From a virus: DNA of 44,454 bases. The DNA lies in the IMG/VR virus record IMGVR_UViG_3300036861_001044, positions 1 to 44,454 of that record, one strand, 5' to 3'. A program made the translations under genes and the position numbers. Under the pieces are notes generated by a model. It saw only the letters and a list, made by a program, of their open reading frames with translations, was not told the origin of the DNA and ran no database searches. Positions 26,959-44,454 of the stretch are shown here, piece by piece. Position 1 is the stretch's first letter. Each line of letters starts with the position of its first letter.

Positions 26959-28029
26959 CTACGGGGCCAGGCCGTTGCGGATCACGAGGGGCCACCGATA
27001 GATTGGCGTCGAGGGCAGCAGGCGCTGCGGCTGGTACTGGCGCGCCGTGAGTTCCGCGTACGGGTAGTAGTTCCGCCAGGTCGGACGGTAGTCGGCCAGC
27101 GTCAGGGGCGCGGCGAAGGCCCGCTTGAAGATCGCCACGGTGTCGTACGTGCCCGGCGCGAAGTTGGCCGCCGCGTTGTCCGACCCGATGTAGAGCGTGG
27201 CGCCGAGCGTCGTGATGATCCCGGTCCCCGCGCCCCCGGCCGTCGTCAGCTCCGTGAACGCCCCCGTGCCCGTCGCGTACCAGAGCGCGAGCGCGCCGGC
27301 CGCGCTCCAGGACGCCACGATGCGGACGCGGGTGTTCGCCGCCCACGTCACGGCGCCCTGCTTGTTTTTCGCCCCGCCGGCGGCGTCGAGAATCTCGAAG
27401 ATGAGGAGGTTGCCGGCCGTCTTGTAGAGGCTGAGGCGGTTCGCGGTCGTGCCGCTCGTGTCGACGAGGCGGTGCAGGAGCCCGTCGGTGCCTGCCCACG
27501 TGGGCGCGACCTCGACGACGAGGATGCCCTCGTCCTTGAGCAGCGGGTCGTCGAAGCCCGTCGGCGTCGCCGCCGAGGCCTGGGCGGTCGCCACCGAGAG
27601 GGACTGCGCTGCCCCGAGGACGAGGCCGCGGCCGTTCGTCGCGGCGGCGTACGCGGCGCTGCCACTGTTGAGCACGAGGAGGAGGGCGTTCTGGTCGCGC
27701 AGCGTGTCCTCGAAACCCCAGACGGAGCCGGTGTGCCGGTCGATCCAGAGCTCGAACTGCTTGCCCTTGGCGGCGTGGTCCTCGAAGAACCACCGGAGCT
27801 GCGCCAGCTCGTCCGGCTGGCAGATGAAGTCGACCTGGCAGGCTTCCTCGATCCGCGAGAACAGGTACTCCGTCCGGCCGCCGTAGGCGCGGTTCTCGCC
27901 CCGTTCCGCAGTCTCCGTCGGCGCGTAGGTGACCGCGGCCTGGACGAAGGCCCGCGTGATCGCCGGTGTTCCGTACCGAATCTTGGGGTACTGGTATGCC
28001 GGAGCGTCGACGAGGCCGATCGGGCTCAC
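26959..28029 (-). CDS. Distal tail protein with LamG-like domain
   Basis: A 356-residue protein. Residues 1-125 look like a distal-tail N-domain with a short-tail-protein pattern (FICQPDELAQLRWFFEDHAAKG and ELWIDRHTGSVWGFE). Residues 126-315 have the LamG/ConA-like pattern (GLVLGAAQSLSVA, LSLYKTAGNLLIFEI, TRVRIVASWS, ATLYIGSD). Such domains bind sugars. It lies between the tape measure and the tail tip. Confidence 0.7.
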   Translation of the reverse strand: MSPIGLVDAPAYQYPKIRYGTPAITRAFVQAAVTYAPTETAERGENRAYGGRTEYLFSRIEEACQVDFICQPDELAQLRWFFEDHAAKGKQFELWIDRHTGSVWGFEDTLRDQNALLLVLNSGSAAYAAATNGRGLVLGAAQSLSVATAQASAATPTGFDDPLLKDEGILVVEVAPTWAGTDGLLHRLVDTSGTTANRLSLYKTAGNLLIFEILDAAGGAKNKQGAVTWAANTRVRIVASWSAAGALALWYATGTGAFTELTTAGGAGTGIITTLGATLYIGSDNAAANFAPGTYDTVAIFKRAFAAPLTLADYRPTWRNYYPYAELTARQYQPQRLLPSTPIYRWPLVIRNGLAP

Positions 28030-30716: not shown

Positions 30717-31267
30717 CAGGCCGGTTCCCGGGAAAGCACGCGCCAGTCGAAGGCGAACTTGTCGAGCGGGTCGCGGGCGACGTCGGCCGGCGAGCGGTGC
30801 GTCAGCCGCGCCACCACGCGCAGGGCGTCACGGAACGGGCCGGCGGGGATCGCCGCGCGGGCCAGGCCCGTCACGCGGGCGGCTTCGTCGCGGGCGGCCG
30901 GCGTCAGGCGCTCGCGCAGGTCCGCGGCCGCCTCCTCGAGCCAGCCCGACGCCTCCAACAGCACGACCGCCAGCGTGTCCCGGTCGGCCCCCAGGACGGC
31001 GGTCCCCTCCGGCCTGATCTGCGGAGCCACGAGCGCCGCCGCCACGAACTGGTCGAGCCAGCGCTCCCAGGCGATCTCCAGATCACGGGTCGCGCCCGCC
31101 TGGTCGACCGGCGGCGCAGCCTGGAGCAGCAGGGCCGGCGGCCAGCGCGTCAGCAGGACGACGGCGGCCGGCGGCGGCGGCTCGTCCGCGCCGCTCAGCA
31201 GCTCGACGGCGGCCACCACCGGGCCGCCGAACCGCGCGGAGAGGTCCGGCAGAGCGACGTAGATCAC
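30716..31267 (-). CDS. Tail assembly protein (second chaperone-position gene)
   Basis: A 183-residue protein with GTG start in a GTGA overlap with the preceding gene. It is helical and Ala-rich with many prolines near 28-45. It lies between the chaperone-like gene and the tape measure, where T-type chaperone proteins sit. I saw no slippery heptamer in the last part of the preceding gene, so it is probably made separately. Confidence 0.6.
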   Translation of the reverse strand: MIYVALPDLSARFGGPVVAAVELLSGADEPPPPAAVVLLTRWPPALLLQAAPPVDQAGATRDLEIAWERWLDQFVAAALVAPQIRPEGTAVLGADRDTLAVVLLEASGWLEEAAADLRERLTPAARDEAARVTGLARAAIPAGPFRDALRVVARLTHRSPADVARDPLDKFAFDWRVLSREPA

Positions 31268-31776
31268 GCGGCTGCGTCCGGCGCTGCCGGCGCTGGGATG
31301 GGGGTGGACTCCTCGCCGAGCGCCGGACCCTCAGCCGGCGCGACCGGCGCGACGAACCCGGAGAACTGCAGGATCGCCTCGGCCACGACGTCGGCGTCCT
31401 CGGCGAGGGCCCGGATCTGGTCGCGCGAGAGCTTCGGCTCCACCAGGCCCTCGGCCACGACGGCGTAGGTGACGTCCACCCATGCCCGGCGCCGTTCCTC
31501 CTGCTCCGCGGCCGGGAGCGACGCCAGCCACTCGGCGATCCGCCGGCCCCGGGCCGCCGCGGACTCTTCGGGCCAGCCGTCAGCGCCGGGTGGGAGCTGC
31601 GGGAGCAGGGACAGGTAGGTGGCGCGGCGCAGCGCGCGCACCAGCACACGGACGTCGCCGCCGGCGCGCCGGCTCAGCGCGGGGAGCCGCACCGGGGTGA
31701 CGCTCTTCGCGGCGAGCATCGCGGGAGTCAGGAGGGTCGCCCCTTCTGGTAGGCCGTGGCCGTTGTCAACGCTCAT
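31264..31776 (-). CDS. Tail assembly chaperone-like protein
   Basis: A 170-residue protein from ATG 31776 (a longer reading has no ribosome site; AAGGAGGACC precedes 31776). Helical with an acidic/Ala C-terminus, and a central part (WLASLPAAEQEERRRAWVDV) typical of tail-tube chaperones. Position after the tube gene supports the call. Confidence 0.65.
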   Translation of the reverse strand: MSVDNGHGLPEGATLLTPAMLAAKSVTPVRLPALSRRAGGDVRVLVRALRRATYLSLLPQLPPGADGWPEESAAARGRRIAEWLASLPAAEQEERRRAWVDVTYAVVAEGLVEPKLSRDQIRALAEDADVVAEAILQFSGFVAPVAPAEGPALGEESTPIPAPAAPDAAA

Positions 31777-31800
31777 CGCTCGGTCCTCCTTCGTCGCCGC

Positions 31801-31864
31801 CGGCCGGACCGCCGGCCGGGGTCGGAGCACGCCGGGCGCGGCCCGCCGGGGCCGCGAGCCCGGC
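31801..31864 (-). other. Two strong GC hairpins between tail tube and chaperone genes
   Basis: One 14-bp interrupted stem lies at 31831-31864 (loop 31845-31848) and a 7-bp stem (CGGCCGG/CCGGCCG) at 31801-31818. No T-run follows, so they are not classical terminators. They may protect tube mRNA ends or reduce downstream expression. Confidence 0.55.
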
Positions 31865-31870
31865 GCGCGG

Positions 31871-32833
31871 TCAGTCGTATACGATGCTTAGCTCATCGCC
31901 TCCCGCCGTCGCGTTCAGCGTCGCCGTCACCTGGAACGTGCGCACGCCGCCGCGCGTGCCCTCGGCCACATCGATCACCTGGAGGCGCGAGGCGCTGAAC
32001 TTGATCCGGTTGTACTGGGCCGTCCCGACCTGCCAGGACGCGGCCATCTGCGTCGCCAGGTCGCGCTTGTTGTGCCAGTCGAACGTCGCCGCCGTCACCT
32101 GATCGGGGTCGAATGTCAGCGTCACGCGCCGGTTTGCGATGAGCACGCCGGCCACCGCGTCGGCGGCGTTCGCCGAGCGCAGGAGCTGCACGTCGTTCCC
32201 GAGGTCCAGGTCGATGGCCTGCACGCGGTGCGTGGTGCCGCCGATCGTCACGACGCCGGACTTGAAGATCGGCGGCTGGATCGTCGACGGGGCCACCGTC
32301 AGCAGCGCGACGTCGGCCGGGGCGCTGTAGATCCCGGCCAGCGCGTAGGCGTGCACGAGCGGCTCGCCGGCGCGGAACGCCATGCGGAACGTGCCCAGCG
32401 CGCCGAGGAGCTTGCCGTTCGGCGCGTTCTCGGCGAACAGGGCCGCCGTGCCGGCTTCGCCCATGGTCGCGCCGGCCTGGGGCGTGTACGTCCACTTCTC
32501 CAAGGTCGCGACGAACGATCCGACCGCGGCGAGGCCGCACATGCGCAGCAGCGCGTCGTCGGGCGGCTTCACGGTGGCGCTGTAGGCCACGTTCGCCCCG
32601 CGCTGGAGCGTCTCGAGCCCCAGCGTGGCCGACCGGGCGCCGGGGATGTCCGGTAGCTGCGCGACGAACCCGCCCTGCCGCTCGTCCCGCAGGGCCTCCT
32701 GCACGGCGCGGAACACGATGTTCCGGGCCTCGACCAGGTCGGCCGCGGCGAGCGTCGCGTCGGTCCCGTACGTCGTCTCGATCTTGGCCCCGACCGACCC
32801 GCGCCGGACCCGGGCGACCGTCAGCTGCGCCAT
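31871..32833 (-). CDS. Major tail tube protein
   Basis: A 320-residue protein, MAQLTVARVRRGSVGAKIETTYGTD, with beta-rich duplicated domains, as in the double-domain phage tail tube families. Key stretches: NIVFRAVQEALRDERQGGFV, LRMAFRAGEPLVHAYALAG and the C-terminal VRTFQVTATLNAT. It polymerises around the tape measure. It is followed by the GC hairpins, consistent with being the most expressed gene here. Confidence 0.82.
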   Translation of the reverse strand: MAQLTVARVRRGSVGAKIETTYGTDATLAAADLVEARNIVFRAVQEALRDERQGGFVAQLPDIPGARSATLGLETLQRGANVAYSATVKPPDDALLRMCGLAAVGSFVATLEKWTYTPQAGATMGEAGTAALFAENAPNGKLLGALGTFRMAFRAGEPLVHAYALAGIYSAPADVALLTVAPSTIQPPIFKSGVVTIGGTTHRVQAIDLDLGNDVQLLRSANAADAVAGVLIANRRVTLTFDPDQVTAATFDWHNKRDLATQMAASWQVGTAQYNRIKFSASRLQVIDVAEGTRGGVRTFQVTATLNATAGGDELSIVYD

Positions 32834-32836
32834 GGT

Positions 32837-33004
32837 CTATGCCTCCTCCACTGCCCCGAGCGGATAGATGCCCGTCGCCTCACCGTCGAGCTTCACCGTC
32901 ACCGTGTCATCATCACAGGCCAGCACGGTCCCCTCGATCCCTTCCGGCACCCGGACCCGGTCACCGCTGGCGTAGCGTCTGGACTCGCGGCGATGGGCCA
33001 TCAT
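32837..33004 (-). CDS. 55-aa SH3-like protein
   Basis: MMAHRRESRRYASGDRVRVP then TVLACDDDTVTVKLDGEA: a KOW/SH3-like small beta barrel. Starts in an ATGA overlap (or TGATG with the second ATG). Unknown function near the tail terminator. Confidence 0.6.
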   Translation of the reverse strand: MMAHRRESRRYASGDRVRVPEGIEGTVLACDDDTVTVKLDGEATGIYPLGAVEEA

Positions 33005-33489
33005 CCGACCTCAAGCGCCTCGCGGATCGTGACGATATAGATCTGGCCGAAGAACCCCAACACTGCCCCGAGTTCATCGAATTCCCCGTCATCAACCTCT
33101 TCGGCTTCGCCGTCGGCATCGATATCCTGGACCAGGCCGCCCAGGGTTGCATTTTTCATGAGCGTCCGAAAGACATCGTCCGCGGCGCGCTGAAGCCACG
33201 TCGAACGCGGCACGTTCGCATCCCCTTGCACATAGCCGACGACGCGGACGCGGAAGCGATGAAGAAAGATGGCCGAGGTCGCTGAATCGGTCGTATCAGT
33301 CGCCCGGGTCGACCCAGGGGCTTCCAGGACGAGAAAATGCGGAAATCGATTGATTTGCTGAATGGCTTTCCAGATCCGCTCGACCCCGGGGGGATTGGCG
33401 TAGGTGCCCCCCCACGGTCGAATGCCCGTCATCCCGGTCAAGACCGTGACGATCGCCGCCAAGGCTTGCTCGCGGATGGGCTCAGCCAC
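33001..33489 (-). CDS. Tail terminator-like protein
   Basis: A 162-residue protein of gpU/completion-protein size, MAEPIREQALAAIVTVLTGM, with beta hairpins FPHFLVLEAP and HRFRVRVVGYV, and a C-terminal acidic segment. It lies between the HK97 gp10-like and tube genes, where tail terminators occur. It overlaps the next by four bases. Confidence 0.7.
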   Translation of the reverse strand: MAEPIREQALAAIVTVLTGMTGIRPWGGTYANPPGVERIWKAIQQINRFPHFLVLEAPGSTRATDTTDSATSAIFLHRFRVRVVGYVQGDANVPRSTWLQRAADDVFRTLMKNATLGGLVQDIDADGEAEEVDDGEFDELGAVLGFFGQIYIVTIREALEVG

Positions 33490-33976
33490 TCGCGGCCTCC
33501 GGAACGGCCGGGGCGGGCGTGGCGACCCGCCGGTTCAGCGTCGTGTCGAATTCTCCGAGCGCGAGCGCCTGCAAGCCGGCCTGGCTCTCTTCTGCGCTTT
33601 TCGCGAGCCAGAACCGCGCGCTGACGCCTGGATGGTGAAGACTCGCCGCAGTGATCCAGCGACCGGCCACCCGGAACCGAAGCAAGGAACGCCGCCGGGC
33701 TCGGATCTCATGCGGTCGCGCGCCACGTTCCAGGATGGCCCCGGTAAACCAGCCAGCCCCGACTCGCCCGGCCGGGAGTCGGCCGCTCCCGAGGACCTCG
33801 GCGCGCAGCGAGCCGCGGAGCCTCCCTCGACGAATGCCGACGACGCGCCCACTGAGATTGTCAAATGCGCGCTGGCGAATGACCTCGAGCATCTTCGGCA
33901 ATGCCGCGCGCCAGCCCGCCTCGATCGCTGGCGCCCCAAGATCGCCGGTCACCGCGACGCGAACACTGAGTTGCAT
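33482..33976 (-). CDS. HK97 gp10-like head-tail joining protein
   Basis: A 164-residue protein. The start (MQLSVRVAVTGDLGAPAIEA) and PKMLEVIRQRAFDNLSGRVVGIRRGRLRGSLRAEV match the gp10-like family, which closes the tail terminator/neck. It overlaps the next gene by eight bases. Confidence 0.78.
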   Translation of the reverse strand: MQLSVRVAVTGDLGAPAIEAGWRAALPKMLEVIRQRAFDNLSGRVVGIRRGRLRGSLRAEVLGSGRLPAGRVGAGWFTGAILERGARPHEIRARRRSLLRFRVAGRWITAASLHHPGVSARFWLAKSAEESQAGLQALALGEFDTTLNRRVATPAPAVPEAASG

Positions 33977-34045
33977 TCACCACGCCTCGCGGAGGATCAG
34001 GTGGTCGATCAGGCCCGTGACCTTGAGCCGGCCCCTCAGATCCAT
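33977..34045 (-). CDS. 22-aa peptide
   Basis: MDLRGRLKVTGLIDHLILRE and two more residues, tightly coupled: it begins in a TAATG overlap with the connector stop and its TGA is immediately followed by the next ATG. A leader peptide or spurious frame. Confidence 0.35.
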   Translation of the reverse strand: MDLRGRLKVTGLIDHLILREAW

Positions 34046-34677
34046 TAGCCGACCGCGGTTACGCGGTACCGCTCGTCGAGCGCCTGACGCGCCCACCGGG
34101 GCATCGGGATGTCCAGAAGGGTCACGGACCCCGAGGGCAGCGTGACCGTGGTGACATCTGCGAGCTGCTTCTGGCGGTCGCGCCAGAGCTTTTGGAGGAC
34201 GTACAGGGCCGCCTCCGCGAGATCGCCCGGGACGCTCGCCAGACCCCCGGTGTAGGTCAGCAGGATATTGAGCGGTCGACCGCTGGAGAACGGGGCCCAC
34301 CCCTGGCTCCGCCAGAGGCTTGTTCTGACTCCGAGGACCGCGTCCTCGGGATCCGCATCGACGATGATCACGTCTTTCAGGCCCTGATCGCCATCGGCTT
34401 CACTCTTCCAGATGGTCTGTGCCACGTCATCGACGACCACCGTCAGCGGTTGCGAGATGTTGAGCGGCGTGGCCCTGAAGCGGAGTTCCGGCCATGACAT
34501 CCCCCGTCGCCGCTGGTTCGTGAATGTCCGTTCCTTCAGCGGTCGCCGGCAATACCCCTCGAGGAAATCGGACATCCGGTTGATCTCCTCCTCGAGCTTG
34601 AGGTCATCAGCGCCGCCGGTGGTCAGCCACGACTTGGCCTCGTCAAGCGTCACCAGCGCGTTGGTGTTGAGCGCCAT
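34045..34677 (-). CDS. Head-tail connector (gp6-like)
   Basis: A 210-residue protein. It opens LVTLDEAKSWLTT and EINRMSDFLEGYCRRPL, the classic helical gp6 start that binds the portal. A beta insert (about 60-130) precedes a C-terminal helix (EAALYVLQKLWRDRQKQLADV). It is in the expected place after the capsid genes. Confidence 0.85.
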   Translation of the reverse strand: MALNTNALVTLDEAKSWLTTGGADDLKLEEEINRMSDFLEGYCRRPLKERTFTNQRRRGMSWPELRFRATPLNISQPLTVVVDDVAQTIWKSEADGDQGLKDVIIVDADPEDAVLGVRTSLWRSQGWAPFSSGRPLNILLTYTGGLASVPGDLAEAALYVLQKLWRDRQKQLADVTTVTLPSGSVTLLDIPMPRWARQALDERYRVTAVG

Positions 34678-34683
34678 CGGGTC

Positions 34684-35250
34684 TCAGAACTGGCTCGCCT
34701 GCACCGTGAGGGTCCCCGTATTGCCCACGCCGCAGGCGCCGAGAGTGACGACGAGCGTATTGCCCGTGGCCGCGGTGAGGCCGGTCGCCCATTCGCGCAA
34801 GAATTGGGCGGTGCCCACGGCCGCCGCCGGCGTCGCCCAGATCGTCGTCCCGCCATCGGTCACGGTCAGGCTCGCCGTCCCGGCGGAGCAGAAAGCCTGC
34901 ACGCTATGGAGTAGGGCGCGCTGGTTCGCCACGCCGGTAATGGTGGCCGTGACGGCCGTATTGGCCGCGCCGGTTGCATGCGAGTTGAAGAGTGCCGCGC
35001 CCTGGACCGGCGTGATGGCCCAGGGGAACCGCGCCTGGCCCGCGCCCGAGCTCTGGGTGGGAGTCGTCGTAGCCGTCGAGCCCGCGCCCAGGATGACCTT
35101 CTCGGCCCAGGTGCCGTCGGCCATGTCGACGGCCCGGCGCGAGATCGTATGGCCGGAGTCGGTCCGCTGATAGTAGACCGTGTCGGCGGCATCGGCGGAG
35201 ACGCCGAGGAGGAGCGCGAGGAGCCCGACGACGGCCGCCAGTCGCTTCAT
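34684..35250 (-). CDS. Virion-like protein with a Sec signal peptide
   Basis: A 188-residue protein, MKRLAAVVGLLALLLGVSAD, which is a strong signal peptide ending near Ala22-Asp. The mature part is beta-rich (GHTISRRAVDMADGTW, VTATITGVANQRALLHSVQA, TASLTVTDGGTTIWATP) like phage structural proteins, and has two cysteines (AFCSAG, GACGVG). The ATG at 35250 has a ribosome site (GGAAGGAGCG) at better spacing than the one at 35256. A secreted protein in a head operon is unusual. Confidence 0.65.
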   Translation of the reverse strand: MKRLAAVVGLLALLLGVSADAADTVYYQRTDSGHTISRRAVDMADGTWAEKVILGAGSTATTTPTQSSGAGQARFPWAITPVQGAALFNSHATGAANTAVTATITGVANQRALLHSVQAFCSAGTASLTVTDGGTTIWATPAAAVGTAQFLREWATGLTAATGNTLVVTLGACGVGNTGTLTVQASQF

Positions 35251-35262
35251 AGGCATCGCTCC

Positions 35263-35316
35263 TTCCTGAGCGGGGCGGATCCCGCGTCGGACCCGCCCCG
35301 TCAGAATTCTCAGGAA
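35263..35316 (-). other. Long hairpin before the secreted virion-like gene
   Basis: Outer arms TTCCTGAG (35263-35270) and CTCAGGAA (35309-35316) and inner arms CGGGGCGG/CCGCCCCG (35271-35278, 35293-35300), with a few more inner pairs. The outer arm overlaps the Shine-Dalgarno region (AGGAAGGAG), so folding could limit translation. No T-run. Confidence 0.6.
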
Positions 35317-35318
35317 GA

Positions 35319-35810
35319 TCAGTCGATAATCGCGCTGGGCGGCGGAGTGTACCGCGGCCCGCTCAGGACGTAGAGCAGCGCGCCGAGCTGCGCCGTCACG
35401 CCGACATCGGCGAAGGTCGCCCGCACGCAGTCGAACCCGCCCTCCGCGTCGAGATCCTCGGCGTTGAACTCGATCAGATAGATCACCTGCTTGTCACCGT
35501 CGTCACCGTTGTAGGTGTTCGCGGCCGCTTGGGTAACCTTGGTGAACTGGCCGACGGTCTGAACGTCGGCCGCCGACTTGCGGTAGATCGTGGTGAAGTT
35601 CAGCGCCTTGGCGCCGGCTCCGGCGACGTCCGTCGCCTGCTGAACTGTGATGATCGGGTCCTCGGCCGCGGCGCCGGCCGCCTTGAAGAAGACGATGGCG
35701 ACATGACGGTAGTTCTTGAGGCTGACCCAGTCCCCGGATTGGGCGGCCGCAGCGAGGTCGGCCGGCACGAACCCGGCGGCGATCTGGAGTTCTTCCGCGA
35801 GCAGCTTCAT
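35319..35810 (-). CDS. Head decoration-like protein
   Basis: A 163-residue protein, MKLLAEELQIAAGFVPADLA, of a common phage family found just after the major capsid gene: NYRHVAIVFFKAAG, TVQQATDVAGAGAKALNFTT, KVTQAAANTYNGDDGDKQVI, FDCVRATFADVG and a C-terminal VLSGPRY. Probably on the capsid surface or at vertices; this is inferred from position. Confidence 0.65.
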   Translation of the reverse strand: MKLLAEELQIAAGFVPADLAAAAQSGDWVSLKNYRHVAIVFFKAAGAAAEDPIITVQQATDVAGAGAKALNFTTIYRKSAADVQTVGQFTKVTQAAANTYNGDDGDKQVIYLIEFNAEDLDAEGGFDCVRATFADVGVTAQLGALLYVLSGPRYTPPPSAIID

Positions 35811-35835
35811 CTCGTTCTCCTCCTCGCGCCCTGGA

Positions 35836-37209
35836 CTACCGGGCGGCCAGCGCCACGAACGGCGACAGCGTGTTCGTTCCCTTGAACGGCGTGAGGGCCG
35901 TCCGCCACGTCGGCTGCCCGTTGATCCGGAAGACCCACCGGAACGTCTGCTCGTCGTTCAGGAAGCGGACGTGCATCGAGGTGTCGTAGCGCAGCCCTTC
36001 GCCCGACTTCGTGATGACGACGTACTCGTTGAGGTTGACGAGGAGGATGTCGCCGACGTCGCCCAGCGCGGCCGCCTGTTCGATCTCGATGACCGGCTTG
36101 CCCAAGAGGATCCCGAACGGCAGGTTGGCCACGCCGCCCGGCGGAAGCCAGACCGGCTGGTTGGCCACGCTCATGAGCGGCAGCTGGGTCATCACGTCGG
36201 AGTGGATGAGCCAGACGGCCCCGGGCTTGAGCCGCGCCGGGATCCGCGAGTACATCTTGATGACGTTCTCGACCTTGACCGTATCCACGGCCTGGCCGCC
36301 CTCCGCGGCCTGCGTCACCAGGACGGGCGAGTTCAGGATGCCGAGCATCTGGCCGGCGCCGGTGCCGTACAGGATCGAGGCATCGACCTTGAACGCGAAT
36401 TCCGACTCGAAGGCGCTGCCGAGCAGGGCCTCCAGGGCGGTCGCATCGCGGATCAGGCGCTCAGTGGAGTAGGCCAGGCCCATGATCTCCTCGAGCCGCA
36501 GCTCGCCCTTGCCGATCTTGGGCTGCTTGTTGGCCACCGCCGCGGCCTCGGACTTCCAGAAGACCTGGACGCCGCCCCATCGCGAGCCGTCCACGCGGCT
36601 CGACTCGTCGATATAGGGGTACTCGAGCCCATCGAAGTCCGCCCCGATGGGGATCGGTCGGCACCGGGGCAGCAGCATGGCCTGCTGGGTGGCGCGGTCC
36701 AGCATGGCGGTGCTCCAGTCCTTGCGCACCAGGTAGCCGCCATCCGACGGCGTGCCGACCGACATGCCGGTGCCGGCGGCCTGATAGGCGGCGAGCTTCG
36801 AGATGAGGACGTTCGCCTGGCTGCCGAACCGCATCCGGGTCGTCGCGTCGCTCTGGCAGGCGATGGCCTGCAGGAACTCGCCGAACCCGGCGAACTCGTC
36901 GTTGAACGGGGCCGAGACGGTCGCGCCCGGGCGGGATCCGCCGCCGGGGTGGGCCTGACCGATAGTCGCCCGCTCGTGCTCCTCGAGGCGGATCTCGGCC
37001 TGGATCTCCTCGTTGACGCTGTCGATCTGGACCTTGAGCTCGTCCAGCTCGGAGAGGATGGCGTCCCGGCGGGTCTTCTCCTCGGGCAGGAGCATGCGCT
37101 TCTCTTGCTCCGCCCGATCGCTGATCGCGTGGCCTTCTTTGGAGAGATCCTGACGCTTCCGGTCGAGGTCAGCTAGCCGGGTGGCCAGCTGCTGGTGGCG
37201 CTTCGTCAT
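35836..37209 (-). CDS. Major capsid protein (HK97 fold)
   Basis: A 457-residue protein. Residues 1-75 are an amphipathic delta-domain (RLADLDRKRQDLSKEGHAIS and DELKVQIDSVNEEIQAEIRL), cut off by the protease in maturation. After SAPFNDEFAGF the HK97 fold is seen (FEYPYIDES-like LEYPYIDESSRVD, ATALEALLGSAFESEFAFKVD, DILLVNLNEYVVITKS, TFRWVFRINGQP). ATG 37209 is preceded by GGGGGAGGAG; an in-frame ATG at 37242 lies before this site and is less likely. A promoter and structured leader precede it. Confidence 0.93.
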   Translation of the reverse strand: MTKRHQQLATRLADLDRKRQDLSKEGHAISDRAEQEKRMLLPEEKTRRDAILSELDELKVQIDSVNEEIQAEIRLEEHERATIGQAHPGGGSRPGATVSAPFNDEFAGFGEFLQAIACQSDATTRMRFGSQANVLISKLAAYQAAGTGMSVGTPSDGGYLVRKDWSTAMLDRATQQAMLLPRCRPIPIGADFDGLEYPYIDESSRVDGSRWGGVQVFWKSEAAAVANKQPKIGKGELRLEEIMGLAYSTERLIRDATALEALLGSAFESEFAFKVDASILYGTGAGQMLGILNSPVLVTQAAEGGQAVDTVKVENVIKMYSRIPARLKPGAVWLIHSDVMTQLPLMSVANQPVWLPPGGVANLPFGILLGKPVIEIEQAAALGDVGDILLVNLNEYVVITKSGEGLRYDTSMHVRFLNDEQTFRWVFRINGQPTWRTALTPFKGTNTLSPFVALAAR

Positions 37210-37232
37210 GCCCCGCTCCTCCCCCTGTGGGA

Positions 37233-37266
37233 TGCCGGGCATGAAAAAACCGCGCGGAGCCCGGCA
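37233..37266 (-). terminator. Terminator-like hairpin in the capsid leader
   Basis: On the minus strand CCGGGCTCCGCGCGG can fold (with one mismatch) and is followed by TTTTTT (37249-37244). Competing arms TGCCGGGC (37233-37240) and GCCCGGCA (37259-37266) can pair across it. Both in one place suggest an attenuator or an on/off switch 35 bases before the capsid ATG. Confidence 0.5.
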
Positions 37267-37387
37267 CCACGATTCAACGATCCGTGGTCACCAGCAGCTC
37301 ACACGCGGTCGAAGGACCCGTGCGTCTCGCTGCGCTGTCGTTGCCTGTTCGCCCGACGCGTAGGGTCAGCGAGGCATCGGCAACGAC
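37266..37387 (-). ncRNA. Candidate structured leader RNA (pseudoknot plus hairpin)
   Basis: Perfect 9-bp complementary pair GTCGTTGCC/GGCAACGAC (37337-37345 and 37379-37387) crosses a 5+5 bp pair GACCC..GCGTC / GACGC..GGGTC (37315-37326 and 37355-37367). A further 6-bp pair CTCGCT/AGCGAG and a bulged hairpin (ACCACGAT/ATCCGTGGT, 37266-37273 and 37280-37288) lie beside it. The RNA would be transcribed towards the capsid gene from the promoter at 37407-37437. No known riboswitch or ribozyme signature is recognised. Confidence 0.45.
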
Positions 37388-37406
37388 CTACTGCGTACGA
37401 TTGGGG

Positions 37407-37437
37407 ACTCTACACCCGCGCCCTAGCCGGTTGTCAA
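37407..37437 (-). promoter_or_regulatory. Candidate capsid promoter
   Basis: Minus-strand TTGACA (37432-37437) perfect -35. The -10 is TAGAGT (37407-37412) with a 19-bp spacer or TGTAGA with 17. Adjacent to the structured leader. Confidence 0.55.
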
Positions 37438-37447
37438 GATTTTCTGC

Positions 37448-38416
37448 TCACGCCCCCCGGGCCGCCAGTTGCCGGCGCATCTCTGCAGGATCATCATCGG
37501 GCGTGGGGGCGACCGCTGGCGGTGTCGCAGGCGGGGTCTCCACCAGGGCCGGCGCCTCGGCGATTGGTCCGATGCGCTTCCGGCCGCTCGCCAGCCGGTC
37601 GACGACCAGGTCGAGGGTCCCGAGGCTGTCGACCATGCCCTGGGTCCGGCCATCCCGGGCCGTGACGAGGCGCCCCTCCCCGAACCCGTCGCGGACCGCC
37701 GCCGGCGTCACCCCGCGCCCGCGCGCCACCGCCCGCACGAAGGCGTCGTAATACTGGTCGACCTTGCGCTGCATCGAGGCCCGGGTGGCGTCGTCCAGCG
37801 GCTCGAGCTCGTTCCCTTCGCCCTTGAACTTCCCGGCGGTCACGAAGGTCGGCTTGACGCCGAGCATTTCGGCCTGCTTCGACCGATCCATGTGGACCGC
37901 GATGACGCCGATGCTGCCCACCATTCCGCTCGGCGTGACGACGACCTCATCAGCCTGAGAGGCGATCCAGTAGGCGGCACTGGCGGCCGTCGCGTTGGCC
38001 ACGGCGACGATCGGCTTCGCCCCGCGAGCCTCGAAGATTTCCGCCGCGAGCTCCTGGATGCCGAACACCGAGCCGCCCGGGCTGTCCACATCGAGCACGA
38101 TCGCGGTGACGCCCGGATCGTTGAGGGACTGGCGGAAGGCGCCGGCGATCTGCTCGGTAGAGGTCCCCCCGCTGACCTGGGTCATCAGGTTCATGCGGTG
38201 CGCGAGGATGCCGAAGACGGGCAGGACCGCCACGGCACCGATGAGCTTGCGCGGGACGGCCGGAGGACCGGCTCCGATGCGCGCCTGGATCTCCTCGTCG
38301 GTGAAGACGCGCCCCTCGATGCGCAGCCGAAGGACTTCGAGGATGGCTTCCAGGCGGTCGGGAAGGATACTCCACGGGTGTTCGCTGACGAACTTCGTGA
38401 CGCGCTCATACCGCAT
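37448..38416 (-). CDS. Head maturation protease (SppA/S49-like)
   Basis: A 322-residue protein from ATG 38416, preceded by AAGGAGGAGCC. SppA-like signatures: VLDVDSPGGSVFGIQEL (oxyanion), ATAASAAYWIAS with nucleophile Ser146, SGMVGSIGVIA, and TAGKFKGEGN with Lys198 as candidate general base. The C-terminus is Pro-rich. This type (lambda gpC-like) cuts the capsid delta-domain and itself in proheads. It lies directly before the capsid gene. Confidence 0.9.
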   Translation of the reverse strand: MRYERVTKFVSEHPWSILPDRLEAILEVLRLRIEGRVFTDEEIQARIGAGPPAVPRKLIGAVAVLPVFGILAHRMNLMTQVSGGTSTEQIAGAFRQSLNDPGVTAIVLDVDSPGGSVFGIQELAAEIFEARGAKPIVAVANATAASAAYWIASQADEVVVTPSGMVGSIGVIAVHMDRSKQAEMLGVKPTFVTAGKFKGEGNELEPLDDATRASMQRKVDQYYDAFVRAVARGRGVTPAAVRDGFGEGRLVTARDGRTQGMVDSLGTLDLVVDRLASGRKRIGPIAEAPALVETPPATPPAVAPTPDDDPAEMRRQLAARGA

Positions 38417-38435
38417 GGTCAGGCTCCTCCTTCGT

Positions 38436-39371
38436 TCAAACTCCGAGCACCTCGAGGGCCTCGCGCTCATCGGCGCGCTCCGAGAGATACCGTCTGAGCC
38501 ACGGATAGGCCTCCGCATCCACCGTCATCATGCAATCCGCGGCACCCACCAACCTCACCAGGCGGGAAGGGATGACGGGCGCCACCTTGACGAGGACCGT
38601 CGCCGCCGCCCCTCCGAACACGAGCCCGCCCGCGCCAATGACTTCGCGGATGGCCGGCTCTGGCGGGGGCGCCGGCGCTTTGACGGGCGGCAACCACATG
38701 AACCCGGCGGGACCAGTCGGAAGGGCCGGCTTCGGCGAAATCGTATCCGCTTGCCCACCGAACACCACGCCGCCCGACATCGTGTACAGGAAGGTGTGCG
38801 GTCCGGTGAAGAGGACCGCGGCGGCTCCGGAGAGGAGCAGGCCGCCGACGCTCGGGGCGTAGACCTGCACGGCAGCAACAGAAGCGACGCCCGCGAGCGT
38901 GAGGCCGCCCGCCGGCACCCAGACGCGCGTCCGACTCTTCGTCGCCGCACCAGACAGAGCGAGGCCGCCCGCTGCCTCGTAGACCTGGACGGCCGCGATC
39001 GCGGCACCGCCGGCAAGGGCGAGGCCGCCCGTGGGCACGAAGACCTGGATGACGGTCGGCGAGGCGGCACCCGCGAGCACGAGCCCGCCCGCACCGATGT
39101 ACAAGAATGCGCGCGACACCGACGTCGTCGCTGCGCCGGCGAAAATGACGCCGCCGGCTGGCGTATAGACCTGGACCTGAGCTGTCGTGGCCGCGCCGGC
39201 GAAGGCGAGACCACCGGTGGGTTCAAAGACCTGAACGAGGACCCGCTCTGCGGCGCCGGCGAAGGTGAGGCCGCCAGAGCCCGTGTATTGCTTGACGCTG
39301 AACCCCACATCGACCAGGTCCTCGTCGAACCAGCTGAGCGGCAGGAGCGAGGCGTCGAAATTCAGCGGCAT
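38436..39371 (-). CDS. Repeat protein with GGLxxAGAA modules
   Basis: A 311-residue protein in which a unit of about 20 residues recurs at least ten times: GGL, a hydrophobic pair, AGAA, then about 6 residues, VQV and a Pro (for example GGLAFAGAATTAQVQVYTPA). The first residues (MPLNFDASLLPLSWFDED) and the last 60 (MTVDAEAYPWLRRYLSERAD) are different. The regular pattern suggests a beta-solenoid or stacked hairpins, as in fibre or decoration proteins. It lies between portal and protease. Confidence 0.7.
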   Translation of the reverse strand: MPLNFDASLLPLSWFDEDLVDVGFSVKQYTGSGGLTFAGAAERVLVQVFEPTGGLAFAGAATTAQVQVYTPAGGVIFAGAATTSVSRAFLYIGAGGLVLAGAASPTVIQVFVPTGGLALAGGAAIAAVQVYEAAGGLALSGAATKSRTRVWVPAGGLTLAGVASVAAVQVYAPSVGGLLLSGAAAVLFTGPHTFLYTMSGGVVFGGQADTISPKPALPTGPAGFMWLPPVKAPAPPPEPAIREVIGAGGLVFGGAAATVLVKVAPVIPSRLVRLVGAADCMMTVDAEAYPWLRRYLSERADEREALEVLGV

Positions 39372-39374
39372 CGC

Positions 39375-40154
39375 CTAAAACCAGGCCGTCGGCACGAGGT
39401 GGGGGTCAAAGACGCCGAGGGGGGCCGCGCCGCCGGTATCCGGTGGCGGCGGGGCGGCGGCGGCGTACGCCCGTTTGCGCCGTTGGGCTGACCACCCAAT
39501 CGGTGGCCCGTCATCAACCACCGGCGTCCCTACGAGCGTGAGGTCGCGCGCCAAACCGGAGTAATCCTCGGCGTTGGTCGCTATGGCCCGATCCACACAC
39601 GGATACCAGCCTTCCAGGTTGGCCGTGCGCTTGGGCACGTACGACCACCGCTCACTCGCGCGCTCGGCGGCGGTCAGGGCCGCACTCCACCACTTGATGG
39701 CGGCGATGCGTCCGGGCAACGGCCCGTCATTCGCGGAGCCGCCCGCCGCGCCCCACTCCATCAAGGCGTTGCTGCCGGTCTGCGCCTGAGTCCGCTGCGG
39801 CGCGGCCGTCGTGGAGCCGTCCCAGTAGACGTCGGTCCGGTCCGCCACCTCGCCCCGGAGCATGGCCACGTGGTACCAGGTCAACGTGCTCGGCGTGATG
39901 TTCAGCGTGGCGTTGATCCCGTCGACCTCAAGGAACACGCGCATCTGCCCGGCGAGGTTGCTGAGGCTCAGATAGTGATACGGGTTGGGGAACCCCGGGT
40001 TGCTGCCGAGGTAGCACATGATGTCGTGAATGTCCGGAGCCGGGAGGGAGGCAAAGAGAATCCAGAACTGGATCGTCCACGGTCCGGCAATCGAGGGCAG
40101 GCTCGCCGTGCGCTGTAGCCGGTCGAGCGCGTCACCAAAAAAGCGAACGGCCAT
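39375..40154 (-). CDS. LamG/ConA-like domain protein
   Basis: A 259-residue protein. Residues 1-190 have the LamG-like pattern: GPWTIQFWILFAS, YHYLSLSNLAGQMRVFLEVD, TWYHVAMLRG, RTDVYWDGSTTA and PGRIAAIKWWSAALT. Such domains bind carbohydrate. The C-terminus is Pro/Ala-rich. Together with neighbours it is likely part of an adhesin or capsid fibre block. Confidence 0.75.
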   Translation of the reverse strand: MAVRFFGDALDRLQRTASLPSIAGPWTIQFWILFASLPAPDIHDIMCYLGSNPGFPNPYHYLSLSNLAGQMRVFLEVDGINATLNITPSTLTWYHVAMLRGEVADRTDVYWDGSTTAAPQRTQAQTGSNALMEWGAAGGSANDGPLPGRIAAIKWWSAALTAAERASERWSYVPKRTANLEGWYPCVDRAIATNAEDYSGLARDLTLVGTPVVDDGPPIGWSAQRRKRAYAAAAPPPPDTGGAAPLGVFDPHLVPTAWF

Positions 40155-40651
40155 TAGGTCTCCCGCAGTTCGACGGATTTCAGGTGCGCGTCACCCACCA
40201 TATCGTCTGTCCCCGTCGTCCCATCGGCATCGCGCCGCACTCGGAAGCGGAAGTCCTCGCCGATGGCGATCCCGTCGATCTGGGCGTTGGTGAACGTGAT
40301 GGTCGTGTACTTCACCTCCCCGGCGAGGCTGGACGTCACGCTGCCGGCTGATTGCGAGGCCGCGAAGCTGTCCGCATCCAGATCATCCACATCATCTTGG
40401 TGACGCTCGAAGAGACCCTCCCATCGACAGGTGCCCGTCGTCGCGGTATCCGCCGCCCAGCCCAGCACGCAGGTGATCCCGCCCCCCGCGTAGCGCCGAT
40501 CCAGGACGTCGGCGAAGTCGAGCGACTCGTCGGCGGCGGCATCGAAGGCCGCGAGGAGGTGATTGTTGCGGCGGAGGAACGGCGCCCCGCCCGTCGTCGG
40601 CGGGAGCCCGTCGGCCGCTTGCCAGCGATGGAGCACGTCCCCCGAGGCCAT
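40154..40651 (-). CDS. Beta-rich virion protein
   Basis: A 165-residue protein, MASGDVLHRWQAADGLPPTT, with beta-strands through the middle (CRWEGLFERHQDD, KYTTITFTNAQIDGIAIGED, FRFRVRRDADGTTG). This looks like a jelly-roll virion protein known from tail or capsid accessory genes; no name can be given. Confidence 0.6.
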   Translation of the reverse strand: MASGDVLHRWQAADGLPPTTGGAPFLRRNNHLLAAFDAAADESLDFADVLDRRYAGGGITCVLGWAADTATTGTCRWEGLFERHQDDVDDLDADSFAASQSAGSVTSSLAGEVKYTTITFTNAQIDGIAIGEDFRFRVRRDADGTTGTDDMVGDAHLKSVELRET

Positions 40652-40896
40652 CAGGTCACCTCAAATCGCCGACGGAGCACAGTGACGAAGAGCAGGACCT
40701 TTTGCTTGGCCGTCAGCGATGTGCGCGCCGGCAACGGGATCGCCGTGTTAAACGACACCGTGTTGTCTTCGATCCACTGGTCGATCGCATCCACCGCAGC
40801 GCGGAGGTCGACCTTGCTGATCCCGATCGGCTCTCGGTTGGTGCGCATCGCCTCCGCCCACACCTCCAGGCGGTCTGCGGCAAGTAACAGGGCCAT
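40651..40896 (-). CDS. 81-aa hypothetical protein
   Basis: A helical protein, MALLLAADRLEVWAEAMRTN, with a hydrophobic middle and a basic end (VLRRRFEVT). Commonly seen beside tail or head accessory genes; role unknown. Confidence 0.6.
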   Translation of the reverse strand: MALLLAADRLEVWAEAMRTNREPIGISKVDLRAAVDAIDQWIEDNTVSFNTAIPLPARTSLTAKQKVLLFVTVLRRRFEVT

Positions 40897-40911
40897 CTCA
40901 CGCCTCCTGAC

Positions 40912-41127
40912 TCATGCTGGCCCGCGAATCCAGGCCGGGAACTGCGCGCGCAGGTCCGCCTCGACGGTGGCCGCCTCGTCCGCCGTCGCGTCGGGCAGGT
41001 CCACGTAGAAGAGCGTCGTGTCGTTGTACCGGATGTCGACCGGACGCCCCACGGGGATCGTCGCCCGGATGGCCGCGATCACCATGTTGGGGTCTACGGC
41101 ATCTTCGTTCGACAAGCTAATGCGCAT
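40912..41127 (-). CDS. 71-aa hypothetical protein
   Basis: From ATG 41127 (TGATG overlap with the preceding stop). A beta-alpha protein (MRISLSNEDAVDPNMVIAAI, then DIRYNDTTLFYVDLPD). A longer frame reads upstream but through the neighbouring gene. Confidence 0.6.
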   Translation of the reverse strand: MRISLSNEDAVDPNMVIAAIRATIPVGRPVDIRYNDTTLFYVDLPDATADEAATVEADLRAQFPAWIRGPA

Positions 41128-41693
41128 CAGAAGACCCTCGTGCCCCAGGCGGCGATCCACGTGCCGTTCAGGAGGTTGACGGCCCCGCCGTCGTCCAGCG
41201 TCACCGAGGTGAACAGGGCCGTCGTGTTGCCCCAGATGCCCGCGAAGTGATATTTGAGGGGCGCCGTCGTGGCGACGAGGGTATTCGAGTTGGTTTCCCC
41301 GTACACCGCTGCCACCACGCCCGACGACCGCTTTTGCGCCCGCATCGTCACCAAGGCCCGCGCGGCCGTAATGGCGACTGTGGCGACTCGGATGCCGGCC
41401 CGGCTCACCCCCGTCGTCGCCGTCACCGAAGTCGATGCGTGGATGCTGTCGGCGTAGGTCGTCCCCGTATCCCCGTTGAATTGCCACTGCGCGATGGATC
41501 CAGCCCCGGAGTAGCCCTGGATGAATCCCCAGACTTCGAGCAGCGACACCGGGAACGGAAAGGTCAGCGTGACGGCGGGCGCGTCGGCCGTCAGCGCCGC
41601 CAGGCCGAGATACTCCCTCGGCATCTCGGCTGGGACGACCATCCTGGGGATGACAATGCCGCGGCCGCCGATGGTGCGAATCCCGCCTTTCAT
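41127..41693 (-). CDS. Beta-rich virion accessory protein
   Basis: A 188-residue protein rich in Val, Thr, Ala and Gly, MKGGIRTIGGRGIVIPRMVV, with strands FPVSLLEVWGFIQG, RVATVAITAARALVTMRA and a C-terminal LLNGTWIAAWGTRVF. Typical of phage surface proteins with a jelly-roll. Starts in an overlap with the preceding stop. Confidence 0.6.
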   Translation of the reverse strand: MKGGIRTIGGRGIVIPRMVVPAEMPREYLGLAALTADAPAVTLTFPFPVSLLEVWGFIQGYSGAGSIAQWQFNGDTGTTYADSIHASTSVTATTGVSRAGIRVATVAITAARALVTMRAQKRSSGVVAAVYGETNSNTLVATTAPLKYHFAGIWGNTTALFTSVTLDDGGAVNLLNGTWIAAWGTRVF

Positions 41694-42361
41694 CAGGCGT
41701 GCTCTTTGCCGCTGAGGTGGAGGTTCACCTGCGACGCGGCCGACGCCAGCGCCGCGATGAAGTCGCCAGCATTGAGGTAGACGTCCTCGAACCCGATGAT
41801 GACGGTCTGCCCCGGCCCGATGGGGATGGCGTCGAGAAAGATATTCGTGGCCCCCGCCGCGCTGCCCGAGGGCACGAGGTGCAGCGTCGCCGTCCGTTCA
41901 ACGGTATCGTTGTTCATAAACAGCGCCTCGGTCAGTTCCGTCACCATGTCCGTCGGCACGGTGTACTGCGTGACCACGGCGGCCGTCAGCTGGTTCTGTG
42001 AGAGCTTGAGCGGCTGGATCATGAGACTCCAGCCCACGCCCTCGACGTATTCCAGGCACCGACCCGGGCTGAGATTGACTTTCTTGAGCTCAACCGCGGT
42101 CGTGCCGTCCGTGTGCACGACCGTAATGACCACGGGCGAGGTCCCCTTGTTTCGGATGTTCAGCGTCTTGACGTTGCGCGAGACGCCGGCCCCCGGCGAG
42201 GCGACGATGTCTGTGGTCGCCGCGGTCGTGATCGCGGTGTTCTTCCGGCCGGTCGTCACCGTGCTGCCGTTGTAGTCCATGAACGAGGCGTGGACGTCCA
42301 CCGTCACGGCGGCGCCCGTGATGAGCTGGATCTTGTCGGTCGTGCTGACGAGGAGGAGCAT
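41693..42361 (-). CDS. Beta-rich virion accessory protein
   Basis: A 222-residue protein, MLLLVSTTDKIQLITGAAVT, with a repeated strand pattern (TLNIRNKGTSPVVITVVHTD, ATLHLVPSGSAAGATNIFLD, GQTVIIGFEDVYLNAGD). A widespread phage structural family in my reading; not a named one. It probably acts in the same surface module as the 188-aa neighbour. Confidence 0.65.
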   Translation of the reverse strand: MLLLVSTTDKIQLITGAAVTVDVHASFMDYNGSTVTTGRKNTAITTAATTDIVASPGAGVSRNVKTLNIRNKGTSPVVITVVHTDGTTAVELKKVNLSPGRCLEYVEGVGWSLMIQPLKLSQNQLTAAVVTQYTVPTDMVTELTEALFMNNDTVERTATLHLVPSGSAAGATNIFLDAIPIGPGQTVIIGFEDVYLNAGDFIAALASAASQVNLHLSGKEHA

Positions 42362-42367
42362 CGCGCG

Positions 42368-42601
42368 CTATACGTACCCGAAGCCCTTCAGCACGGCCTC
42401 CGGCGTGCCCTTGAGCCGCGCCGCCGGAAGCTCGGCCCGCTTGGCCATCCGCACGGCCCCGAGCTTCGCGTAGCCCCGCTCCATCGTCTCGCCCTTCACG
42501 TTCACGTAGTGGAGCTCCCCGACGCCAGTGACCTCATCGATCGCCGCCAGAATCGCCACGCGCTCGCCACGCACGACCCACATCCCTTTGCGCCATCCCA
42601 T
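42368..42601 (-). CDS. 77-aa SH3-like protein
   Basis: MGWRKGMWVVRGERVAILAA and VGELHYVNVKGETMERGYAK: a small SH3-like beta-barrel with a basic, Pro-rich end. This pattern appears in short phage proteins near structural genes. Confidence 0.6.
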   Translation of the reverse strand: MGWRKGMWVVRGERVAILAAIDEVTGVGELHYVNVKGETMERGYAKLGAVRMAKRAELPAARLKGTPEAVLKGFGYV

Positions 42602-42620
42602 GGGGGCCCCTCCTCCTGAT

Positions 42621-43025
42621 TTAGTCGGCGGTGATCTTCGGCGTCACCTTGATCTGGTCGCCGTTGTTGGCGATCGGGTACGGCCCGTCCGTGAACCGCT
42701 CCGCCCACGCCAGCGACCCGCTCGTCACCTGAGTCAGGTAGTACCCAAAAATGTTCTGCGTTGCCTGAGCGGCCGTGGATGAGAAGGTTTGCTGGGCGAA
42801 CGTCGCCTCGGTCGGGGCGCCCTGGACCACGGTCCACGAGCTGCCGGTCAGTGTCACGTTCGCGTAGCCGGTGAACGTCGCCTCGGTGTAAGTCACAGCG
42901 ACGTCAGTCTCCGCCGGCGTGATGTTGTTCTGGAAGAGCCTCAGCACGAGGTTCTGGCCGGCGGTGTGGTTGAGGAAGGCCTTGAGCGCCAGTTCCTCGC
43001 CGATGTTCGGGACCAGGAGCGTCAT
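42621..43025 (-). CDS. Virion accessory protein next to portal
   Basis: A 134-residue protein starting MTLLVPNIGEELALKAFLNH, in an ATGA overlap with the portal stop. It is beta-rich (NLVLRLFQNNITPAETD, AVTYTEATFTGYANVTLTGS, PYPIANNGDQIKVTPKITAD). Proteins with this opening recur in phage tail or head accessory modules. Function not established. Confidence 0.65.
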   Translation of the reverse strand: MTLLVPNIGEELALKAFLNHTAGQNLVLRLFQNNITPAETDVAVTYTEATFTGYANVTLTGSSWTVVQGAPTEATFAQQTFSSTAAQATQNIFGYYLTQVTSGSLAWAERFTDGPYPIANNGDQIKVTPKITAD

Positions 43026-44454
43026 GGATTCTCCTCCTCACCATACTCGAACGTCTCGATAGATCCCTCGATCGTGCGGTTCGCGTCGCGCAGGACTTTC
43101 TTGGACACTCGCCGTGGCTTCGGGGCCTTGAGGTTCACGATCGGCGGGGCATTGTTGACCGTCACTTCTGCCGGAGGTGGGGGTTCCACGTTGACGCGGA
43201 CGGCCCCCTCCTCGATGGTGACCGGCGCCTGCACGTGAACGGGCGCCGGCGTTATGGCGACCTGAGCCGGCCGCACATCTACCCGGACCGCGCCGTCCTC
43301 AATCGTGACAGGGCTCTCGACGACGACCGCCGGCGGCGCGACCCGGACGGCGCCGTCCGCGATCGTCATGGGCGGACAGTGAATCGTGATGGTGATGGGT
43401 TGCAGCGGCGCGCGATCCTCCCGGGCCCTCGAGGGCGCGGGACGCGCCGCCATCAGCTCGGCGAGCTGCACCGGCGCCTCGTGCTCCCAGGTCTCCAGGG
43501 CGACCAGGCCTCGCTCGAGCAGCTCCGCGCAGTGCGCGGCCCCGTACCGCCGTGCGCAGGGGACGTCGAGCCGCAGTTCCCGCGTGAGGGTCTCGACGTG
43601 CCGTCCGTAGAAGTCGGTGACCCAGCGCGTCCAACCGTCGCGGTCGCCCTCGAAGCGTGGCGCCCATCTTTTGAGGGCGGCGATCTCCTTCCGGACGACG
43701 CGCGCGGCCGCATCGAGGGCGAGGAGCCGAGCGTCCGCGATCGCTTCTTCGCCGTCCCCGTCGTCATCATCGTCCGTGGGCGGTGGCCGGCGGCGGGCCG
43801 GTGTGAGCGCGGGCCCGCCGTCTGGATCGCCCCCGCGGCCCTGGTTCGTCGATCGCCGCGGCTCATCGAGGCCCGGCCTCGCGTTGTAATTCAGCTGCCG
43901 CCGGACTTCGTTCTCGCTGAGAATCCCGTTCATGACGTATGTCGCGTGGGCCTGGGCGCGCGACATCATATCGCCGCGGAGCAGGGCGTCCACGAGGAAC
44001 TCAGCGAAGAACTCATCGTCGTCGATCAGGTCGCGCCAGATGGCCTGTTCGAACGCCGTTAGCCAGGGCAGTTCCGTGAAGTTGATGAACCCGATGGTCT
44101 GCTGCTCGATCCCGGTACCCCAGCTCGTCGAGCGATCGACATCGCCGATCAGGTGCGGCGCGACGCGGAAGAAGCGCGCAATGTCGCTGAGGCTGAACTG
44201 GCGTCCCTCCATGTACTGTGCGTCCCGGGCCGAGAGCCCGATCGCCTCGAACTTCACGCCCCCCTCGAGGAGCGCGATCTTGTGGGCGTTGGCGACGCCC
44301 GCGTGCGTCTCCAGCCACTCCTTGCGGTTGTTCTCGCGCTGGGCCGGCGACAGCGCGCCCGGGAAGACGAGTGCCCCCTTGCGTTCGGCGCCCTGCGTCC
44401 AGAAGCGTGCCGCGAAGCCCTCCTGGGCCTGCGCGGTCCCGATGCTCTCCCGCG
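43022..44454 (-). CDS. Portal protein, C-terminal part with long extension, cut by window edge
   Basis: In frame from 44452, the part read here starts RESIGTAQAQEGFAARFWTQ, the conserved portal centre, followed by PGALSPAQRENNRKEWLETH, FSLSDIARFFRVAPHLIGDV and ELPWLTAFEQAIWRDLI. The typical portal core ends near NARPGLDEP; about 280 further residues form a C-terminal extension with an acidic DDDDDGDGEE stretch, a helical part and three repeats of V/MTIxxGAVRV separated by Pro/Val-rich linkers. The first 124 codons lie at 1-372. About 60-70 residues between the two parts are missing. Confidence 0.92.
   Translation of the reverse strand, partial: RESIGTAQAQEGFAARFWTQGAERKGALVFPGALSPAQRENNRKEWLETHAGVANAHKIALLEGGVKFEAIGLSARDAQYMEGRQFSLSDIARFFRVAPHLIGDVDRSTSWGTGIEQQTIGFINFTELPWLTAFEQAIWRDLIDDDEFFAEFLVDALLRGDMMSRAQAHATYVMNGILSENEVRRQLNYNARPGLDEPRRSTNQGRGGDPDGGPALTPARRRPPPTDDDDDGDGEEAIADARLLALDAAARVVRKEIAALKRWAPRFEGDRDGWTRWVTDFYGRHVETLTRELRLDVPCARRYGAAHCAELLERGLVALETWEHEAPVQLAELMAARPAPSRAREDRAPLQPITITIHCPPMTIADGAVRVAPPAVVVESPVTIEDGAVRVDVRPAQVAITPAPVHVQAPVTIEEGAVRVNVEPPPPAEVTVNNAPPIVNLKAPKPRRVSKKVLRDANRTIEGSIETFEYGEEENP

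Follow-up and report, generated by a model that had tools for sequence, protein, structure and literature searches.

Gene setting of the capsid leader

The window analysed here, one IMG/VR virus record of 44,454 bases, carries on its minus strand a tyrosine integrase gene (9784–10788), a terminase gene, a DnaB-like helicase gene and an HK97-type head module. Because of the tyrosine integrase, the phage is probably temperate. A leader of 238 bases (37210–37447, read on the minus strand) separates the S49 protease gene from the start of the capsid gene at 37209, and the first-pass annotation, made from the sequence alone, had given this gap correctly.

37448–38518, minus strand: gene of the S49 head-maturation protease, upstream neighbour of the capsid gene
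37407–37437, minus strand: promoter, read from the sequence, with −35 TTGACA (37437–37432), a spacer of 19 and −10 TAGAGT (37412–37407); predicted +1 near 37400
35836–37209, minus strand: gene of the HK97-type major capsid protein, 457 aa, which the leader would control (Pfam Phage_capsid, 4.8e-38; PHROG major head protein, 6e-35)

The head region also encodes, between protease and portal (39375–40154, minus strand), a protein with a Laminin_G_3 (concanavalin-like) domain, perhaps a decoration protein.

Relatives were gathered from IMG/VR by a capsid protein search (identity 38–74%), and 12 distinct leaders were compared: those of the window and of L002, L003, L004, L005, L023, L026, L027, L028, L033, L039 and L064. 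A common layout is kept in all 12. The order is promoter, domain 1 (D1), short linker, domain 2 (D2), hairpin P3, terminator arm T3 with the U-run, 3' strand of P4, SD and start codon. The −35/−10-like pair pointed out earlier holds up, with TTGACA and TAGAGT at a spacing of 19 in the window. Equivalents are found in most of the 12 leaders, as a TTGAC[A/G]-like −35 and a GTAKMGT-like −10 before D1 with spacing 17–19; the −10 matches of L005 and L033 are poor. A local consensus scan of 28000–44454 missed both the promoter and the terminator of this leader, since the promoter spacer is 19 bases long and the loop of the terminator is long and branched; for this reason the scan was rejected as a test.

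Two copies of one hairpin domain

The first half of the leader is formed by D1 and D2, which are two copies of one bulged-hairpin domain. The shared domain has a stem P1 and an internal loop formed by GAnAC (5' side) and UGA (3' side). On top, P2 is made of two short stems with a bulged G between them on the 3' side, and a small loop serves as the cap. The linker between the domains is 3 nt in the window and 4 nt in nine relatives.

37337–37387, minus strand: D1, with 9-bp P1 (37387–37379 with 37345–37337) and bulged P2, UCGC-UGAC (37372–37365) with GUCG-g-GCGA (37357–37349); from the RNAalifold consensus and partner tests
37294–37333, minus strand: D2, with P1 GCAGC/GCUGC (37333–37329 with 37298–37294) and internal loop GAGAC/UGA; from pairing, shuffles and model R1
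Within 37294–37333, minus strand: upper part of D2, with P2a CACG/CGUG, bulged G at 37306, P2b GGUC/GACC and a tetraloop; from pairing, shuffles and model R1

Folding of the 12 leaders by RNAalifold with no structure given recovers D1, D2 and P4, and 20 of the 37 pairs are doubly changed. In D2, 97.4% of the cells are paired, and 7 pairs and 19 cells are doubly changed. Its covariation score is 0.416 vs 0.151 in shuffles and at most 0.098 in slid-partner controls; 1/500 and 0/500 shuffles score as high as the real sequence. Changes on both strands are seen as CAAG/CUUG in L028, CAGG/CCUG in L002 and GCGG/CCGC in L064. We also compared the pairing of each arm with its own partner and with partners from other leaders. 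No reassignment in 20000 is as low for any of D1-P1, D1-P2, D2-P2 and D2-T3, and the counts are 10/20000 for P3 and 25/20000 for P4; these permutation tests ignore relatedness, and 12 leaders, with the capsids of nine in one clade, are a limited sample. Comparison with related phages was the check proposed in the first-pass annotation, and the paired arms do covary. In particular, the 9-bp complementary pair it had listed is real, covaries and is stem P1 of D1. The pseudoknot it had drawn, which joins the D1 loop to bases upstream of D1, is not supported by the same kind of test, with 1741/2000 reassignments as high as the own pairs. A kink-turn was rejected by inspection, the GA pairs and the bulge being in the wrong order.

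The homology of the two domains is recovered by a covariance model, R1, which was built from D2 only and scores D2 at 72.9 bits. R1 matches D1 directly upstream of D2 in eight relatives, with 42.8 bits in L028, 35.1 in L002, 28.9 in L003 and 28.4 in L026, and lower scores in L033 (25.5), L004 (25.1), L005 (21.0) and L027 (18.9). The window's own D1 lies below the R1 threshold and is not recovered. It has diverged, with a core of GAUGC/ACA instead of GAnAC/UGA; its stems are kept and its 9-bp P1 is perfect. No good further copy of the motif was found by R1 in 16 whole records of the same phages. The conserved unpaired GAnAC, UGA and bulged G suggest a recognition core. The leader has a conserved, structured and covarying candidate sensor of the kind expected of a riboswitch, and its two homologous domains, with D1 diverged in the window, stand upstream of one platform as in tandem aptamers.

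A predicted terminator sharing a strand with domain 2

The second half of the leader contains the elements of an intrinsic terminator, and its 5' arm is the 3' half of D2.

37297–37308, minus strand: terminator 5' arm CCGCGUGUGAGC, which is the 3' half of D2; best T3 partner in 12/12 leaders, reassignment test
37266–37288, minus strand: P3, ACCACG-g-AU/AUCGUGGU, an 8-bp hairpin with one bulge, which tops the terminator when that forms; own partners preferred, folds
37244–37260, minus strand: terminator 3' arm T3 GCUCCGCGCGG (37260–37250) with U6 (37249–37244); partner test, folds, U-rich run conserved in 12 leaders

The best partner of T3 is the D2 3' half in every one of the 12 leaders (37308–37297 in the window). 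A hand alignment of D2 and T3 has 133 of 137 cells paired and 16 doubly changed, and none of 5000 whole-arm reassignments is as high. The first-pass annotation had placed a hairpin with T6 just before the capsid gene; the T6 is present at 37249–37244, and the conserved terminator is a different structure from the short CCGCGCGG hairpin, its true 5' arm lying in D2, about 50 bases further upstream. The bulged 8-bp hairpin described there is present with matched partners, as P3. Both the tandem duplication and the sharing of a strand between D2 and the terminator were missed at that stage.

In P2a the three strands change together: CACG/CGUG/GCAC, CAGG/CCUG/GGAC (L002), CAAG/CUUG/GAAC (L028) and GCGG/CCGC/GGCG (L064); the window has CACG/CGUG/GCGC. 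Such three-strand changes would be hard to explain unless selection acts on both alternative folds. Since the 3' half of D2 is at the same time the terminator 5' arm, D2 and the terminator are predicted from sequence and covariation to exclude each other in 12/12 leaders; by the same evidence the terminator would act as an expression platform that excludes the sensor fold. This exclusion and the covarying arms support the earlier reading of the leader as an attenuator or cis-regulatory RNA. When the RNA is made to end at the U-run, folding into the terminator beats the best T3-blocked fold by 6.6–18.9 kcal/mol in all 12 leaders, in folding energies that take no account of kinetics, tertiary contacts or proteins.

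P4, P5 and the ribosome-binding region

Two further pairings are found between T3 and the capsid gene.

37233–37266, minus strand: P4, UGCCGGGC (37266–37259) with GCCCGGCA (37240–37233), with T3 and the U-run in its loop, competing with the terminator; RNAalifold consensus, partner test 25/20000
37210–37240, minus strand: ribosome-binding region, where GCCC (37240–37237, P4 3' strand) can pair with GGGC by the start codon (P5), with the SD in the loop; pairing energy

P4 corresponds to the second pair of arms that had been said to compete with the terminator. Because it takes part of the strand needed by P3 and the terminator, P4 would belong to the read-through state. The mean pairing energy of P5 is −10.3 vs −7.3 in shuffles, none of 1000 being as stable. 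Both sides of P5 are changed in L039 (GCUCG/CGAGC), and the changes are few overall. This modest evidence suggests a translational gate through P5.

Distribution of the leader

In the capsid tree, which left out L023 and L039, nine leader-bearing phages form a single clade with support 96/90. L064 (contig IMGVR_UViG_3300037882_004778) is placed far from this main clade, amid mostly leader-less relatives, and its capsid is only about 45% identical; it has the same D2/terminator/P4 module. Given this position, the RNA module would either have moved between phages or have been lost often, and transfer of the leader to L064 is possible. Of the more distant capsid relatives, nearly all either lack a long leader or have one of another kind. 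In L023 the capsid reading frame (from 2501) is broken after about 103 codons, by a sequencing error or in a disrupted gene.

No capsid relatives were found in the GTDB contigs searched. Among named phages the closest capsid proteins are just 22–34% identical; Streptomyces phage Dagobah has no leader before its capsid gene, and a Bradyrhizobium phage has a 100-base gap from which the motif is absent. A pattern search of GTDB contigs for the motif in bacterial genomes gave 25 matches, none of which had the conserved hairpin or the terminator arm on inspection. In viral contigs a relaxed pattern gave, beyond the known members, only weak model matches of at most 23 bits; the seven inspected have no T-run downstream, and all convincing copies found lay in capsid leaders of this phage group. 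Rfam 15 has no match in the window at gathering score and only chance-level matches in the leaders, so that a known Rfam family is rejected; this agrees with the earlier remark that no class matches. No description of such an element was found in the literature searched, in which subscription journals are thinly covered. Leader-peptide attenuation was rejected, since 8 of the 12 leaders have no ORF of at least 6 codons with an SD-like start and the ORFs in the other four are unlike each other.

Other capsid leaders were seen in the wider group. In the more distant L036, L037 and L041 the general layout recurs: the arm before a U-rich stretch can pair with the 3' strand of a hairpin further upstream, which would double as terminator 5' arm, but the core differs and GAnAC/UGA is absent. 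This is a hint that attenuation of the capsid gene may be common in this phage group. A second leader type, found by eye in L199, L202, L203 and possibly L037, has GCACGGCUGACGCG near its start pairing with CAGCCGUGCGC before the U-run. The long-range arms of the L199/L202/L203 type enclose a conserved ACAAC...GUUGU hairpin, and it differs from the type in the window. L009 (capsid 49% identical) has a different long leader at 2808–2974, in which a promoter-like sequence and a long hairpin are accompanied by a strong terminator, GGGCGCGGC...GTCGCGCCC, that has a T-rich tail.

Proposed switch mechanism

We propose that the leader acts as a bistable transcription attenuator of riboswitch-like type, whose sensor is the tandem of D1 and D2 and by which the capsid operon would be switched ON; we put the probability of this reading at about 0.74. 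It is carried by computed stems, covariation, a shared strand, a thermodynamic preference and a conserved position. The parts that we infer are termination itself, the bound state as the ON state, the added control of translation and the ligand as such.

Transcription would begin near 37400, from the promoter within the leader, and D1 would be made first and D2 second. If the tandem domains are bound and stabilised, the D2 3' half would stay inside D2. The T3 arm would then be free and enclosed by P4, so that the polymerase could read through and the ribosome-binding site would be open. With no stabiliser, the 3' half of D2 would pair with T3 and P3 would stack above, giving a strong intrinsic terminator upstream of the capsid start. 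On mRNAs that escape it, the 3' strand of P4, now unpaired, may also mask the ribosome-binding site. Since the terminator is the more stable fold without help, termination should be the default, and the capsid gene should be switched on when D2 is stabilised. During transcription D2 would be favoured to form before the terminator, as is usual for the kinetics of riboswitch attenuators. To be noted, transcription arriving from upstream would cross the leader too.

Possible triggers of the proposed switch

The switch itself is better supported than any reading of its trigger. The foremost candidate, still short of even odds, is a protein bound to D1–D2, which could come from the phage (a late protein or even the capsid protein) or be an RNA-binding protein of the host. 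It possibly binds in dimeric form, spanning the short constant linker, and the leader would then be a protein-sensing attenuator and not a metabolite riboswitch. Hairpins with a bulged G and an internal loop are common protein targets, and D1 and D2 are of this form; the linker is a near-constant 4 bases in 9 of the 12 leaders, and the motif is confined to one phage group and one gene. However, no candidate protein was found, nor a second binding site in the phage records. A true riboswitch, in which binding of a metabolite or ion by the two similar aptamers would be cooperative, as for glycine riboswitches, and would report the host state to the capsid gene, is a more tentative choice. Its conserved unpaired core would suit it, as would two homologous domains on one expression platform, the cooperative tandem-aptamer arrangement (PMC9481103). 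Against this, the motif was not found in bacterial genomes, the 25 GTDB matches being devoid of hairpin and arm, and riboswitches normally precede metabolic or transport genes. The fuller version, an undescribed tandem-aptamer riboswitch class of temperate phages in which a host small molecule or ion decides on completion of the capsid mRNA and P4/P5 add a second, translational gate, we consider doubtful. Since the motif is limited to a single phage group and a single gene, a metabolite is a somewhat less likely trigger than a protein or the polymerase.

The polymerase could itself be the partner if D1–D2 acted like put: bound to the transcribing polymerase, they would keep D2 from the terminator and confer resistance to later terminators. 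In the part of PMC9378689 drawn on here, putRNA consists of two stem-loops, putL lies just downstream of its promoter and no trans factor is needed; D1–D2 likewise follow directly after a promoter, a likeness of layout only. At about 70 nt, putRNA serves early genes, and the same part describes no overlapping terminator strand; moreover, constitutive put activity would make the conserved terminator pointless unless the polymerase state varies. We regard a put-like antiterminator as unlikely. Less probable again is an abundant small RNA of about 150 nt as the main product, with capsid mRNA as just read-through: the own promoter, the compact structured RNA and the strong terminator would fit, but a terminator arm that tracks D2 rather than an independent hairpin would stay unexplained, as would P4 and P5. 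Ordinary intergenic sequence with chance hairpins is hardly credible. Hairpins abound in the G+C-rich window, and terminators were not in excess in the local scan, yet the covariation and the conservation in 12/12 leaders speak against chance, and the D2-T3 reassignment test refutes it.

Phage late genes are usually viewed as timed by promoters and protein antiterminators. A conserved RNA switch gating the capsid gene alone would, if true, add a tier of regulation unlike these, and its sensor could be assayed in vitro. Triggered by a metabolite, it would be a phage riboswitch for virion production; triggered by a protein or by the polymerase, it would represent a new put-like or attenuation system. 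With either trigger, the model predicts base changes that turn the capsid gene on or off.

Comparison with known systems

The leader resembles the tandem riboswitches for glycine and NAD+ (NAD+-I) in having two similar domains in a row that feed a single expression platform, whose terminator uses a strand of the second domain. It differs from them in its fold and core, in having no Rfam match and a putative ligand, and in preceding a phage capsid gene and not metabolic genes. HK022 putRNA (PMC9378689) also has two stem-loops right after a phage promoter and an effect on downstream termination, whereas here the second hairpin overlaps the terminator 5' arm, the gene is a late structural one, the RNA is longer and polymerase binding is hypothetical. 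The cyanophage manA and wcaG RNA motifs (PMC2864571) are likewise phage-borne structured cis-regulatory RNAs, but they go with metabolic, exopolysaccharide or light-induced genes and not with a capsid switch. Amino-acid leader-peptide attenuators and the T-box share with the leader an alternative terminator/antiterminator folding before a gene; unlike them, the phage leader has neither a conserved leader peptide nor an Rfam T-box match.
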